Below are positions 23,746 to 28,096 of a DNA stretch of 42,241 bases, piece after piece; position 1 is the stretch's first letter; each line of letters begins with the position of its first letter. The translations under genes and the position numbers were made by a program. The DNA is from Acidimicrobiia bacterium (lineage in GTDB: Bacteria > Actinomycetota > Acidimicrobiia > IMCC26256 > DASPTH01): assembly GCA_040880805.1 (NCBI GenBank), contig JBBDHW010000019.1, positions 45,870 to 88,110 on the forward strand. The letters are read 5' to 3'. The notes under the pieces are model-generated. The model saw only the letters and a program-made list of their open reading frames with translations. It searched no databases and was not told where the DNA came from.

Positions 23746-24774
23746 TCAGCCGCCGGAGACGTCGCGCGGGCGGGCTTTGCCCGCGCCGATCCACGGCATC
23801 ATGCTCCGCAGCCGGTCGCCCACCTCTTCGATGGGGTGCTCCGCCGACTGGCGCCGCAACGCGTTGAACACCGGCCGACCCGCTTGGTTCTCGAGGATCC
23901 ACTCCTGGGCGAACTTGCCGGACTGGATCTCACCGAGGATCTTCTGCATCTCCGCGCGCGTCTCGTCGGTGATGATGCGCGGGCCGCGCGTCATGTCGCC
24001 GTACTCGGCAGTGTCGGAGATCGAGTAGCGCATATTGGTGATGCCGCCCTCGTAGATGAGGTCGACGATGAGCTTCACCTCGTGCAACGTCTCGAAGTAC
24101 GCAGACTCGGGCTGGTAGCCCGCGCCCACGAGTGTCTCGTAGCTCGCCTTGATGAGCTCGACGAGTCCGCCGCACAGCACGACCTGCTCGCCGAAGAGAT
24201 CGGTCTCGGTCTCCTCCTCGAACGTGGTGTCGAGCACGCCTGCGCGGGTCGCGCCGATCGCACGCGCGTACGCCAGCGCGGTCTGCTTCGCCTTGCCGGT
24301 CTCGTCGGCATTCACCGCGACGAGCGCGGGCACGCCGCCGCCTTCGTCGAACGTGCGGCGCACCAGGTGGCCGGGCCCCTTCGGCGCGATCATCCACACG
24401 TCGACGCCCTTCGGCGGGCGGATCTGCCCGAAGTGGATGTTGAACCCGTGCGCGAACGCGAGCGAGTCGCGCTCGTCGAGGTTCGGCTCGATGTCTTCGC
24501 GGTAGACGCGCGCCTGATCGGTGTCGGGCAGGAGCACCATGATCACGTCGGCTTCCTTGCACGCCTGCGCAGTGGTGACGACACGCAGGCCGGCCTCTTC
24601 GGCCTTCGCCCACGACGACGATCCGTCGCGCAGGCCGACGCGCACGTCGACACCCGAGTCCTGCAGGTTCAGCGCGTGCGCGTGCCCCTGCGAGCCGTAA
24701 CCGAGCACCGCGATCTTGCGCCCGTCGAGCAGCGCGAGGTCGGCGTCAGCGTCGTAGTAGATGGTTGCAGGCAT
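23746..24774 (-). CDS. ilvC: Ketol-acid reductoisomerase (IlvC)
   Basis: A 342-residue class I ketol-acid reductoisomerase that isomerises and reduces 2-acetolactate or acetohydroxybutyrate in valine and isoleucine synthesis. The Rossmann loop is [20 protein letters not shown] with VRVGLRDGS following. The catalytic domain shows [37 protein letters not shown], and the metal and substrate residues in [17 protein letters not shown] with [16 protein letters not shown] at 24774 is preceded by AGGAGAGAG on the minus strand; the longer in-frame start has no support. It follows ilvN by 16 bases in the ilvB-ilvN-ilvC order common in actinobacteria. Confidence 0.96.
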
Positions 24775-24790
24775 TGCTCTCTCCTGTGTC

Positions 24791-25333
24791 TCAGGCCAGT
24801 GTCTGGGCCGGTCGCGATCGTACGGCACGGAGCTTGGCGGGTTGGCGGGCGAGTTTGGGCAGCGCGATACGGCCGGTGCGCTGGAGCTCGACGATGCCGA
24901 ACGGCGTGAGCAGGTCGGTCATCGCGTCGAGCTTGTCGGGTGTGCCCGCTACCTGGATAGTCATCGCGTCGTGCCCGACGTCGTCGATCCTCGCCTGGAA
25001 GATCGACGCGAGCTCGGTGATCTGCGACCGCGCCTCGGGCGTTGCCTTCACCGTCACCAGCATGAGCTCACGCTCGACCGCCTGATCGGGCGCGAGCTCG
25101 GCGATCTTGATCACGGGGATCAGCTTGTTCAGCTGCTTGGTGATCTGCTCGAGCGGTGCCGACTCGGCGTCGACCACGATCGTCATCCGACTGAAGCGCT
25201 CGTCCTCGGTGGGGCTCACCGCGAGCGACACGATATTGAAGCCGCGCCGCGCGAACAGGCCGGAGACCCGCGAGAGCACTCCGAACTTGTTCTCGACGAG
25301 CACGCTGAGGATGTGATGCTGACCTTCACTCAT
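24791..25333 (-). CDS. ilvN: Acetolactate synthase small (regulatory) subunit
   Basis: A 180-residue regulatory subunit of acetohydroxyacid synthase. The N-terminal ACT domain is clear: [59 protein letters not shown] and [10 protein letters not shown]. The C-terminal half ([34 protein letters not shown]) stimulates the large subunit in known homologues. It binds IlvB and confers valine feedback inhibition. It starts 64 bases after the ilvB stop and is followed by ilvC, so all three probably form one attenuator-controlled unit. Confidence 0.95.
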
Positions 25334-25397: not shown

Positions 25398-27122
25398 TTA
25401 TCGAGCTCCGTAGGTGTCGTGTGCGGGGTCGAGGATGATGTCGTCGTTCGACATGCCGGCCTGGACCATGGGGTACACCTTCTCCCGGTAGTCGGTACGG
25501 AAGTCGATCACCACCGGCCGGTCGTCGATCTCGTTCGCCTTCTCGATCGTGGGCACCACGTCGTCGGGCGTGTCCACGCGAAAGCCGGCACACCCCATCG
25601 CCTCGGCCCACATCACGTAGTCGGGCAGGTCGGGCGACAGGTACACCTCGCTGTAACGCTCCTCGTAGAAGAGCTCCTGCCACTGGCGCACCATGCCGAG
25701 GTACGCGTTGTTGAGGATGGCAACCTTCACCGGAATGCGCTCCGCGCTCGCGGTGACGAGCTCCTGCGCCGTCATCTGGAAGCAGCCGTCGCCGTCGACC
25801 GCCCACACCATGCGCTCGGGCTTGCCGACCTTGGCGCCGATCGCGGCCGGCACCGCGAACCCCATCGTGCCGAGCCCGCCCGAGTTGATGTAGGTGTACG
25901 GGTAGTTGAACGTCCAGCGCTGGCTGGTCCACATCTGGTGCTGGCCCACGCCGGCGACCACGATCGTGTCGTCGGGCGTGTTGTCGCGGAGCATGTCGAC
26001 GCAGTACTGCGGCTTCAGCGGACCATCTTCCAACTGCTCGTAGCGCAACGGGTAGCGCTCCTGCCACTCGCGCAGTTGCCGGTGCCACGTTTCGAGCGAC
26101 GGCCACTCGCGCTTGTTGCGCTCGGCCTTCACCGCCTTCACGAGCTCCTCGATCACGAGGCGGCAGTCGCCGACGATGGGCACGTCGGGGCGGCGCACCT
26201 TGCCGAGCTCAGCGGGGTCGATGTCGACGTGGATGATCTTGGCATCGGGCGCGAAGGTGCTCACCTTGCCGGTGACCCGGTCGTCGAAGCGCGACCCGAG
26301 CGCGATCAGCAGGTCGGCTTTCTGCATCGACGTGACCGCGGTGTAGTTCCCGTGCATGCCCGGCATGCCGAGGCACAGCTCGTGGTCGTCGGGGAACGAG
26401 CCGCGCGCCATCAGCGTGGTGACCACCGGGAACCTGGTGAGTTCGACCAGCTCCTTCAGCGCCTCCGCCGCGCGCGCCTTGAGGATCCCGCCACCGGCGT
26501 AGATCACCGGCCGCTCCGACTCACCCATGAGGCGCGCGGCGTCCTTGATCTGCTTCGGGTGCCCCTTCATGTTCGGCTTGTAACCGGGAAGGTCGACGGC
26601 GTCGGGCCAGTGCCAGTCCATCATCTGGTTGGACACGTCCTTCGGCATGTCGACGAGCACGGGGCCCGGGCGTCCGGTCGTCGCCACGTGGAACGCCTCG
26701 CGGATCACGCGCGGCACGTCGTTCGCATCGGTGATCAACCAATTGTGCTTCGTGACCGGCATCGTGATGCCCACGGTGTCGCACTCCTGGAACGCGTCGG
26801 TGCCGATCACCGAGTACGCCACCTGGCCGGTGATCACGACGATCGGGATGCTGTCCATGTACGCGTCGCAAAGCGGCGTCACGATGTTCGTGGCTGCGGG
26901 GCCGCTCGTGACCATGGCCACGCCGGGCCGCCCGGTCGCGTGGGCGTAGCCCTCGGCCATGTGGCCCGCGCCCTGCTCGTGGCGCACGAGGATGTGGCGG
27001 ATCGACGAGTCGATGAGAGGGTCGTAGACCGGGAGGATGGCGCCACCCGGGAGGCCGAACATGACCTCCGTGCCTTCCATCTCGAGGCTCTTGATGAGGG
27101 CCTGGGCTCCGGTGAGTTGCAT
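25398..27122 (-). CDS. ilvB: Acetolactate synthase large (catalytic) subunit
   Basis: A 574-residue ThDP- and FAD-dependent enzyme making 2-acetolactate and 2-aceto-2-hydroxybutyrate. Visible hallmarks are VMFGLPGGAILPVYDPL, the catalytic Glu in HILVRHEQGAGHMAEGYA, TSGPAATNIVTPL, DMPKDV, the ThDP motif VDGDGCFQMTAQELVTA with ILNNAYLGMVRQWQELF, and the conserved SGGLGTMGFAVPAA. ATG at 27122 follows GGAG at good spacing on the minus strand. The frame stays open up to 27200, but that part runs through the attenuator hairpin and is not expected to be translated. Expression is probably controlled by the leader at 27164-27258. Confidence 0.97.
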   Translation of the reverse strand: MQLTGAQALIKSLEMEGTEVMFGLPGGAILPVYDPLIDSSIRHILVRHEQGAGHMAEGYAHATGRPGVAMVTSGPAATNIVTPLCDAYMDSIPIVVITGQVAYSVIGTDAFQECDTVGITMPVTKHNWLITDANDVPRVIREAFHVATTGRPGPVLVDMPKDVSNQMMDWHWPDAVDLPGYKPNMKGHPKQIKDAARLMGESERPVIYAGGGILKARAAEALKELVELTRFPVVTTLMARGSFPDDHELCLGMPGMHGNYTAVTSMQKADLLIALGSRFDDRVTGKVSTFAPDAKIIHVDIDPAELGKVRRPDVPIVGDCRLVIEELVKAVKAERNKREWPSLETWHRQLREWQERYPLRYEQLEDGPLKPQYCVDMLRDNTPDDTIVVAGVGQHQMWTSQRWTFNYPYTYINSGGLGTMGFAVPAAIGAKVGKPERMVWAVDGDGCFQMTAQELVTASAERIPVKVAILNNAYLGMVRQWQELFYEERYSEVYLSPDLPDYVMWAEAMGCAGFRVDTPDDVVPTIEKANEIDDRPVVIDFRTDYREKVYPMVQAGMSNDDIILDPAHDTYGAR

Positions 27123-27163
27123 CGCGTTCTCCGCTGGTCGGTGGGACGGGCTGTTCGAGGGCA

Positions 27164-27190
27164 CAAAAAACCCCTCGCCGGGCGAGGGGT
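27164..27190 (-). terminator. Rho-independent attenuator of the ilvB operon
   Basis: On the minus strand a perfect stem with 10-base arms (ACCCCTCGCC, 27190-27181 side, and GGCGAGGGGT, 27179-27170 side) around one central base is followed by TTTTTTG (27170-27164). It lies between the leader peptide and the ilvB ribosome-binding site on the same strand, so it can stop transcription before ilvB. Confidence 0.88.
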
Positions 27191-27222
27191 AAGGGCGCAC
27201 GGGCGCGAAGGCGCTCCGAGCG

Positions 27223-27258
27223 CTACATAACTACGAGGATGCCGGTGAGCACGGTCAT
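27223..27258 (-). CDS. ilvB leader peptide
   Basis: A short frame encodes MTVLTGILVVM followed by TAG. Six of the eleven residues are Val, Leu or Ile, the amino acids the operon makes. It lies 33 bases before the terminator hairpin on the same strand, and a short stem GCGCT/AGCGC overlaps its end and could act as a pause or alternative hairpin. This is the arrangement of ribosome-mediated attenuation: scarce branched-chain aminoacyl-tRNA stalls the ribosome and prevents the terminator. An upstream in-frame ATG (MRHNGRPMTVL) is possible, but the promoter position favours the shorter form. Confidence 0.82.
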   Translation of the reverse strand: MTVLTGILVVM

Positions 27259-27267
27259 TGGCCGACC

Positions 27268-27296
27268 ATTGTGGCGCATTCTGTGCTTCGGCGCAA
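27268..27296 (-). promoter_or_regulatory. Promoter of the ilvB leader
   Basis: On the minus strand, -35 TTGCGC (27291-27296) and -10 CACAAT (27268-27273) are separated by 17 bases. The -10 ends nine bases before the leader ATG at 27258, so the leader mRNA would be nearly or fully leaderless. Confidence 0.55.
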
Positions 27297-27310: not shown

Positions 27311-28096
27311 CTAGAGCTGATGGACCGGGCACGAGTAGGTGGTGCGGCCGCCGATCGTGCGACGGAGCAGCGACGCGCCGTCCTTCGGGCAGTGCGCGCC
27401 CGGCTCCCGCTGTGACGTGAGGTCGCCCGTATGCGAGCCACCGCGGCGGCCCAGGATCCGGAGCGTCTCGCGAATCGCTCGGTGTAGACGCCGGGTGTCG
27501 TCGCCATCGAGCGTGTCCGCGGCGCGCTCCGGATCGATGCCGGCGCGCCAGAGCACCTCGTCACACAGCAGGTTGCCGAGGCCGGCGATGCGCGACTGGT
27601 CCATGATCACGGCCTTGATCGGCGCGCGGCTGCGCGCCAGCACGCCGCGCAGGTACGGGAGCGTCACGTCGAACGCGTCGGGGCCGAGGCGATCTTCGTC
27701 GGGATCGAGCTCCACCGCGCCGAGGCGCCGCGGGTCGCGCAGGTAGAGGCTGCCGCCGTCGGCGAACGACAGGCCGAAGCGGTGCCACGCCGAGACGGCG
27801 CGGTTGCTCGCGTAGATCAGCGGGTCACCCGCCGCCTCGCCGTCGATCAACACGCGTCCGCTCATGCCGAGATGGAGGCCGAGCACGGGACCGCCGTCGG
27901 TATCGACGAGGATCAGCTTGCCCCGCCGGCGCGCGGTCGTGAGCTCCAGGCCGCGCAATGCGGCGCGCACCGCGCGAGGCGTCAATCCCCGCTTCAGGAA
28001 CCATGCGTCGGGTGCGTGCACCTTCTCGATCGTGCGGTGCAGCCCTCGCACGCCGATCAGCTTGCGTGCGGACTCGACTTCCAGGATCTCGGGCAC
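27311..28096 (-). CDS. Fpg/Nei-family DNA glycosylase with altered zinc finger
   Basis: A 261-residue DNA glycosylase/AP lyase-like protein. It starts PEILEVESARKLI after the initiator, keeping the catalytic Pro and Glu of MPELPEVE-type enzymes. It has the conserved Lys in ARRRGKLILVD, GLHLGMSGRVLI, LYLRDPRRLG, and the helix-two-turn-helix signature AVIMDQSRIAGLGNLLCDEVLWRAGIDP. The C-terminal finger differs from the usual four cysteines: HCPKDG and SCPVHQ give Cys-x2-Asp and Cys-x2-His. Zinc binding may be changed or lost. The GTG start at 28096 is preceded by an AAAGGG ribosome-binding site. It lies between ilvD and the ilvB leader, but no functional link is apparent. Confidence 0.9.
   Translation of the reverse strand: MPEILEVESARKLIGVRGLHRTIEKVHAPDAWFLKRGLTPRAVRAALRGLELTTARRRGKLILVDTDGGPVLGLHLGMSGRVLIDGEAAGDPLIYASNRAVSAWHRFGLSFADGGSLYLRDPRRLGAVELDPDEDRLGPDAFDVTLPYLRGVLARSRAPIKAVIMDQSRIAGLGNLLCDEVLWRAGIDPERAADTLDGDDTRRLHRAIRETLRILGRRGGSHTGDLTSQREPGAHCPKDGASLLRRTIGGRTTYSCPVHQL

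Follow-up and report, generated by a model that had tools for sequence, protein, structure and literature searches.

The window analyzed here is a stretch of 42,241 nt from the genome of an Acidimicrobiia bacterium (GenBank assembly GCA_040880805.1, contig JBBDHW010000019.1), in which fpg and ilvD lie upstream, and ilvB, ilvN, and ilvC downstream, of a compact regulatory element [Table 1]. The ilvB gene shares up to 88% identity with Acidimicrobiia ilvB, and fpg is on the same strand as the element, with its stop at 27311, 120 nt 5′ of the hairpin designated P2. Judged from sequence and from comparison with relatives, the interval 27165–27296 of the minus strand is very probably a promoter together with a ribosome-mediated transcription attenuator of ilvB-ilvN-ilvC. 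The first-pass annotation had described a promoter-like pair with its −10 box close to an ATG, an 11-residue frame with six Val, Leu, or Ile residues, a short stem at the end of this frame and, beyond a terminator hairpin, a ribosome-binding site and ilvB, all of which we find at the positions given in Table 1. The hairpin, for which 10-bp arms and six T's had been claimed, is indeed a predicted terminator, but its stem has 9 bp and a 3-nt loop and is followed by five T's; a tenth pair would leave a 1-nt loop, and the sixth T pairs within the stem.

Table 1. Parts of the predicted ilvB attenuator and of the presumed operon behind it (positions are those of the window).
Feature	Position	Strand	Basis
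−35 box, TTGCGC	27291–27296	−	Sequence
−10 box, CACAAT; spacer to the −35 box 17 nt; 9 nt 5′ of the leader ATG	27268–27273	−	Sequence
Leader frame, MTVLTGILVVM plus stop TAG; ATG at 27258	27223–27258	−	Sequence and relatives
Hairpin P1; its first base is the last base of the leader stop codon	27195–27223	−	Fold and pair conservation in 78 loci
Hairpin P2, intrinsic terminator stem, 9 bp, loop CCG (3 nt)	27170–27190	−	Terminator scan, fold, and pair counts
Terminator U-tract, five T's after the P2 stem	27165–27169	−	Sequence
GGAG, Shine-Dalgarno site of ilvB	27129–27132	−	Sequence
ilvB, acetolactate synthase large subunit, regulated gene; ATG at 27122	25398–27122	−	ORF
ilvN, acetolactate synthase small subunit, same presumed operon	24791–25333	−	ORF and gene order; named from recognisable sequence
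ilvC, ketol-acid reductoisomerase, same presumed operon	23746–24828	−	ORF and gene order; named from recognisable sequence

Six of the ten leader residues after the initial Met are Val, Leu, or Ile (P ∼0.001 against a background of 14%, taken from upstream triplets), and a GTA valine codon stands in frame 3 codons 5′ of the stop. A terminator scan returned one site at the element and none elsewhere in 700 nt, where 0.1 were expected. The leader promoter was not reported by a strict sigma-70 scan of the window, and Rfam gave no match in the window at the gathering threshold, the sub-threshold matches all being unrelated. As a single sequence the putative promoter is weak, and its reality rests on the −10 position conserved in relatives. 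Taken alone, the window makes a suggestive to moderate case for the predicted attenuator; with the relatives compared, the case is far beyond chance.

Eighty ilvB loci were fetched from Acidimicrobiia and relatives, and 77 loci plus the window make up the 78 with complete upstream DNA. A short frame ending in Val, Leu, or Ile, together with P1 and P2, is present in every one of these testable loci (78/78); the comparison with relatives, which the first-pass annotation had set as a refuting test, thus found the hairpin and the Val/Leu/Ile-rich frame both kept. The leader peptides are 10–17 residues long, and Val, Leu, and Ile make up 74% of their last six residues, 12% of the earlier residues, and 14% of the background, a distribution in which the end of the predicted peptide is the part under conservation. 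A covariance model (R1) built from 49 of the ilvB loci matched the window at 27155–27258 (73.3 bits, E 4.5e-17, the window being in the training set). Its matches extend to 249 of the 295 genomes in the class and, outside it, to 40 sampled genomes of the same phylum. Forty further matches were inspected (20 outside and 20 inside the class) and all lie 5′ of ilvB, cimA, leuA, leuB, or a more distant leuA/cimA homologue (L186). The predicted element is nearly universal in Acidimicrobiia, and the cultured relatives Acidithrix ferrooxidans and Aquihabitans sp. G128 (L065 and L066) both carry it.

We scored −10-like hexamers in the 45 nt upstream of each leader start, and the best hexamer lay 6–10 nt 5′ of the start codon in 74 of the 78 loci, as against a mean of 11.9 and a maximum of 21 in shuffles, the start codons of three loci (L074, L077, and L080) having been reassigned with the −10 spacing in mind. 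TTG is enriched at −38 to −36 relative to the leader start across the 78 loci, and a Shine-Dalgarno-like 5-mer upstream of the leader start was found in 0/78. Transcription usually begins 6–8 nt downstream of a −10 box, and from this distance and the observed spacing a leader 5′ UTR of 0 to ∼3 nt is predicted. We infer that the ilvB leader starts at or next to the mRNA 5′ end, and the −10 spacing and the lack of Shine-Dalgarno sites support the earlier proposal that it is translated from there. The −10 filter was also used in finding the leaders of genes other than ilvB, and so those leaders constitute no independent test of leaderlessness.

In every locus, the start of P1 lies only a few nt from the leader stop codon, and P2 begins 0–6 nt after the end of P1, with no overlap between the two. 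The pairing and covariation score of P2 (alignment A2) was above all 500 shuffles and all slid controls. In five loci (L066, L076, L080, L081, and L035), a perfect P2 stem is followed by TCGTCGC instead of a T run; termination at these sites may depend on an additional factor or proceed in another way. The P2 arms of most loci (ACCTCCC/GGGAGGT, e.g., L031) resemble anti-Shine-Dalgarno and Shine-Dalgarno sequences and are found again throughout the phylum in the leaders of ilvB and cimA. The search for an antiterminator comprised folds of nascent RNA in which the ribosome occupied either of two positions, complementarity scans in windows, and duplex energies set against shuffles and cross-species pairs; none of these gave a convincing classical antiterminator overlapping P2. 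No leader partner conserved for either P2 arm was found, the best 5-nt window reaching 18% of loci, a level not above that between species. The 5′ arm of P2 was not sequestered in the folded nascent RNA and was less complementary to upstream RNA than shuffles were. Pairing between the P1 loop and the P2 3′ arm showed a weak in-species excess (z −3.8 versus cross-species pairs), which could represent an antiterminator like that proposed for Corynebacterium. The earlier description of the attenuator as complete is therefore not established, since these searches gave no antiterminator competing with the terminator.

The choice of codons in the ilvB leaders is strongly skewed, GTA accounting for 65% of Val codons, whereas the ilvB genes at these loci use it for 1.9% of theirs. 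GTA is in frame in 77 of the 78 leaders, nearly always 3–5 codons 5′ of the stop; there is no such shift among isoleucine codons and only a mild one among leucine codons. Biased control codons in attenuators are predicted by the theory of selective tRNA charging (PMC1183508), and the control codons of Corynebacterium glutamicum ilvBNC include GUA and CUU (PMC11857589). Among the 30 tRNA loci examined in the genome of the window, Val-UAC is the only tRNA-Val gene, a count that permits no inference on GTA since the assembly is incomplete.

Leaders were also sought directly 5′ of leuA, cimA, and leuB, using a criterion blind to which of Ile, Leu, or Val is present, and their composition was expressed over the last seven leader residues. 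Leu-run leaders precede leuA in 11/11 loci (Leu 56%, Ile 3%, Val 0%), Ile-run leaders precede cimA in 12/30 (Ile 57%, Leu 0%, Val 1%), and Ile/Val leaders precede leuB in 10/30, of which L244 is doubtful (Ile 33%, Val 21%, Leu 4%); the corresponding values for ilvB leaders are Val 34%, Leu 26%, and Ile 6%. Leader codons matched to the gene are what amino acid-specific attenuation predicts. Together with the leader and hairpins at all ilvB loci, they support the proposal that the attenuation logic of other actinobacteria operates here. The leuA leaders (L278–L288, 11 loci) mostly carry LLLL, with CTT making up 19 of their 48 Leu codons. Pure III or IIII is found in the cimA leaders L168, L171, L174, L175, L180, L181, L183, L184, and L249–L253, cimA being the first gene in isoleucine synthesis via citramalate. 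A second attenuator is predicted in the genome of the window (locus L116, contig C62, ∼61985–62102, minus strand), with the leader MERAPASVIVIP followed by the gene row leuB-ilvE-cimA; as cimA lies inside this operon, no separate cimA leader is expected in this genome. Weak R1 matches in the same genome (L117–L121, E 0.07–2.3) showed no sign of a leader 5′ of a BCAA gene. Trp-run leaders (WW or WWW) occur ∼190–200 nt upstream of trpE in three of 28 loci, from three lineages (L313, L314, and L315), which is indicative that the layout is not general for the amino acid genes of the class.

Given these parts, transcription would begin at the leader ATG or no more than ∼3 nt from it, and a ribosome would load on the mRNA 5′ end without a Shine-Dalgarno site and translate MTVLTGILVVM, as the −10 spacing suggests. 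With ample valine, leucine, and isoleucine, the ribosome would reach the stop codon, P2 would form, and transcription would end; with charged tRNA scarce, it would stall on Leu or Val codons, chiefly on GTA 3–4 codons before the stop. A ribosome footprint reaches about 12–13 nt ahead of the A-site codon. A stall with GTA in the A site would thus leave the 5′ arm of P1 mostly or wholly free, and a ribosome at the stop codon would cover it. On account of this exposure and of its abutting P2, P1 is likely a position-sensitive switch that lowers termination; it could act as an antiterminator, as has been proposed for Corynebacterium, or as a polymerase-pausing hairpin. More speculatively, and with rather low expectation, we suggest that this leaderless attenuator family may respond chiefly to a single isoacceptor (at ilvB, tRNA-Val UAC, which reads GUA) and may block termination without a classical antiterminator, through the stop-codon-proximal hairpin abutting the terminator.

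The same features could conceivably be read in other ways. P2 has a stem and T run like any terminator, and fpg ends shortly before it on the same strand, so that P2 might be the plain terminator of fpg, with the ilvB promoter downstream of P2 and the short frame present by chance. This candidate was rejected because fpg is immediately 5′ in only 3 of 71 relatives, yet the leader, P1, and P2 are found in all of them; it also leaves the gene-matched codons and the −10 position unexplained, and we consider it extremely improbable. We place equally little belief in a DNA operator for a BCAA-responsive regulator, in which the palindrome would not function as an RNA hairpin, even though the arms GACCTCCC/GGGAGGTC are unusually conserved around a variable 4-nt loop, as in the binding site of a dimer. 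Pair counts at the nine inner P2 positions across the 78 loci gave 648 Watson-Crick pairs, 41 G.U pairs, and a single A.C, and on these counts the operator was rejected: a DNA palindrome would treat G.U and A.C alike, and the tolerance of the former argues that P2 acts as RNA. Moreover, inner pairs are swapped in two clades (CG in 57 loci, GC in 21), and T runs usually follow the stem.

That P2 is controlled by a ligand- or protein-binding leader RNA, akin to a riboswitch, with the peptide incidental, is slightly easier to entertain but still very unlikely. Nucleotide conservation does extend beyond the peptide (CTCGTAGT, P1, and P2), the antiterminator search was negative, and ppGpp riboswitches at Firmicutes ilvB provide a precedent (cited in PMC10272879). 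Against this, the peptide residues follow the regulated gene (Leu, Ile, or Val/Ile) on a constant RNA layout, and an Rfam riboswitch or other known motif was rejected, no Rfam family matching at gathering score. A further alternative keeps the sensor and changes the output: P1 would pause RNA polymerase, the ribosome would release it, and the time at which the ribosome arrives would decide termination. The close spacing of the hairpins at all loci, by which P1 would emerge when only the 5′ arm of P2 has been made, is consistent with such pausing, as are the separateness of P1 and P2 and the missing antiterminator; however, the effect of P1 on polymerase is putative, and the excess pairing of the P1 loop with the P2 3′ arm could mean an antiterminator instead. 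We regard pausing as a genuine possibility, though short of probable. As to the ribosome-mediated attenuator, comparison of the predicted loci establishes its parts, their order, the RNA-level pairing of P2, the codon bias, and the gene-matched codons; the leaderless start, ribosome stalling, and termination we infer.

Corynebacterium and Streptomyces are already known to have leaderless ilvB attenuators (PMC10272879, PMC11857589, PMC8079986). The Corynebacterium ilvBNC attenuator is credited to Morbach 2000 in PMC10272879, the C. glutamicum ilvB leader has been dissected (PMC11857589), and that of C. diphtheriae is reported as leaderless (PMC5784534). The Corynebacterium ilvB-II motif, compared here by its description, shares with the Acidimicrobiia element a leaderless short BCAA-rich frame and two hairpins, the second a terminator, 5′ of ilvB (PMC10272879, PMC11857589). 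In ilvB-II, most of P1 lies within the frame and an antiterminator overlaps the terminator base, whereas in Acidimicrobiia the frame ends where P1 begins and the hairpins lie apart; for a counterpart of the ilvB-II antiterminator, in which the P1 loop pairs with the P2 right shoulder, the comparison gave only the weak in-species signal. The Acidimicrobiia leaders also belong to another class of bacteria and, unlike ilvB-II, are found 5′ of cimA and leuB-ilvE as well. Streptomyces lividans IlvL (MRTRILVLGKRVG), LeuL1, and TrpL (PMC8079986) are likewise on leaderless transcripts, with BCAA codons and with hairpins and a U-rich stretch 5′ of ilvBHC, and S. lividans leuA has a Leu-run leader as in Acidimicrobiia; however, IlvL carries four BCAA residues in mid-peptide, whereas the Acidimicrobiia peptides end in BCAA, and cimA leaders are absent from the S. 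lividans leader table (PMC8079986).

Predicted Ile/Val/Leu frames and terminators 5′ of ilvB were described for Corynebacterium, Mycobacterium, and Streptomyces by Seliverstov 2005 (PMC1262725), in a set that holds no Acidimicrobiia and in which the frames overlap the terminator hairpins; leuA has a pseudoknot LEU element in that work, in contrast to the Leu-run leader of Acidimicrobiia. When candidate regulatory codons in the Streptomyces coelicolor ilvB leader were changed, no effect was seen (reported in PMC1262725), which cautions that groups may not share one mechanism. The trp, leu, and his attenuators of E. coli (theory in PMC1183508) have product-matched codons, a terminator, and leader codon bias in common with the Acidimicrobiia element, which differs in having no identifiable antiterminator sharing a terminator arm and in its predicted start at or next to the 5′ end. 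Our literature search found nothing joining Acidimicrobiia with leader peptides and attenuation and no description of a cimA leader, the one paper that mentions both terms concerning a methanogen. Given the attenuators of Corynebacterium and Streptomyces, the principle is not new, but a regulon spanning the class, with cimA and leuB-ilvE in it, and the extent of the GTA bias appear to be unreported in the literature searched.

In essence, a short leader gene most likely lets this bacterium switch on its BCAA genes when valine, leucine, or isoleucine runs short. With these findings, predicted leaderless attenuation covers an entire actinobacterial class, most of whose members are uncultured, as well as the genes cimA and leuB-ilvE, for which the literature searched gave no leader peptide. 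The gene-matched runs (Leu at leuA, Ile at cimA, and Val/Leu at ilvB) amount to a natural experiment pointing to the amino acid sensed, and the 34-fold GTA bias offers a clean test case for the theory that attenuators use the codon read by whichever tRNA is first to lose its charge.
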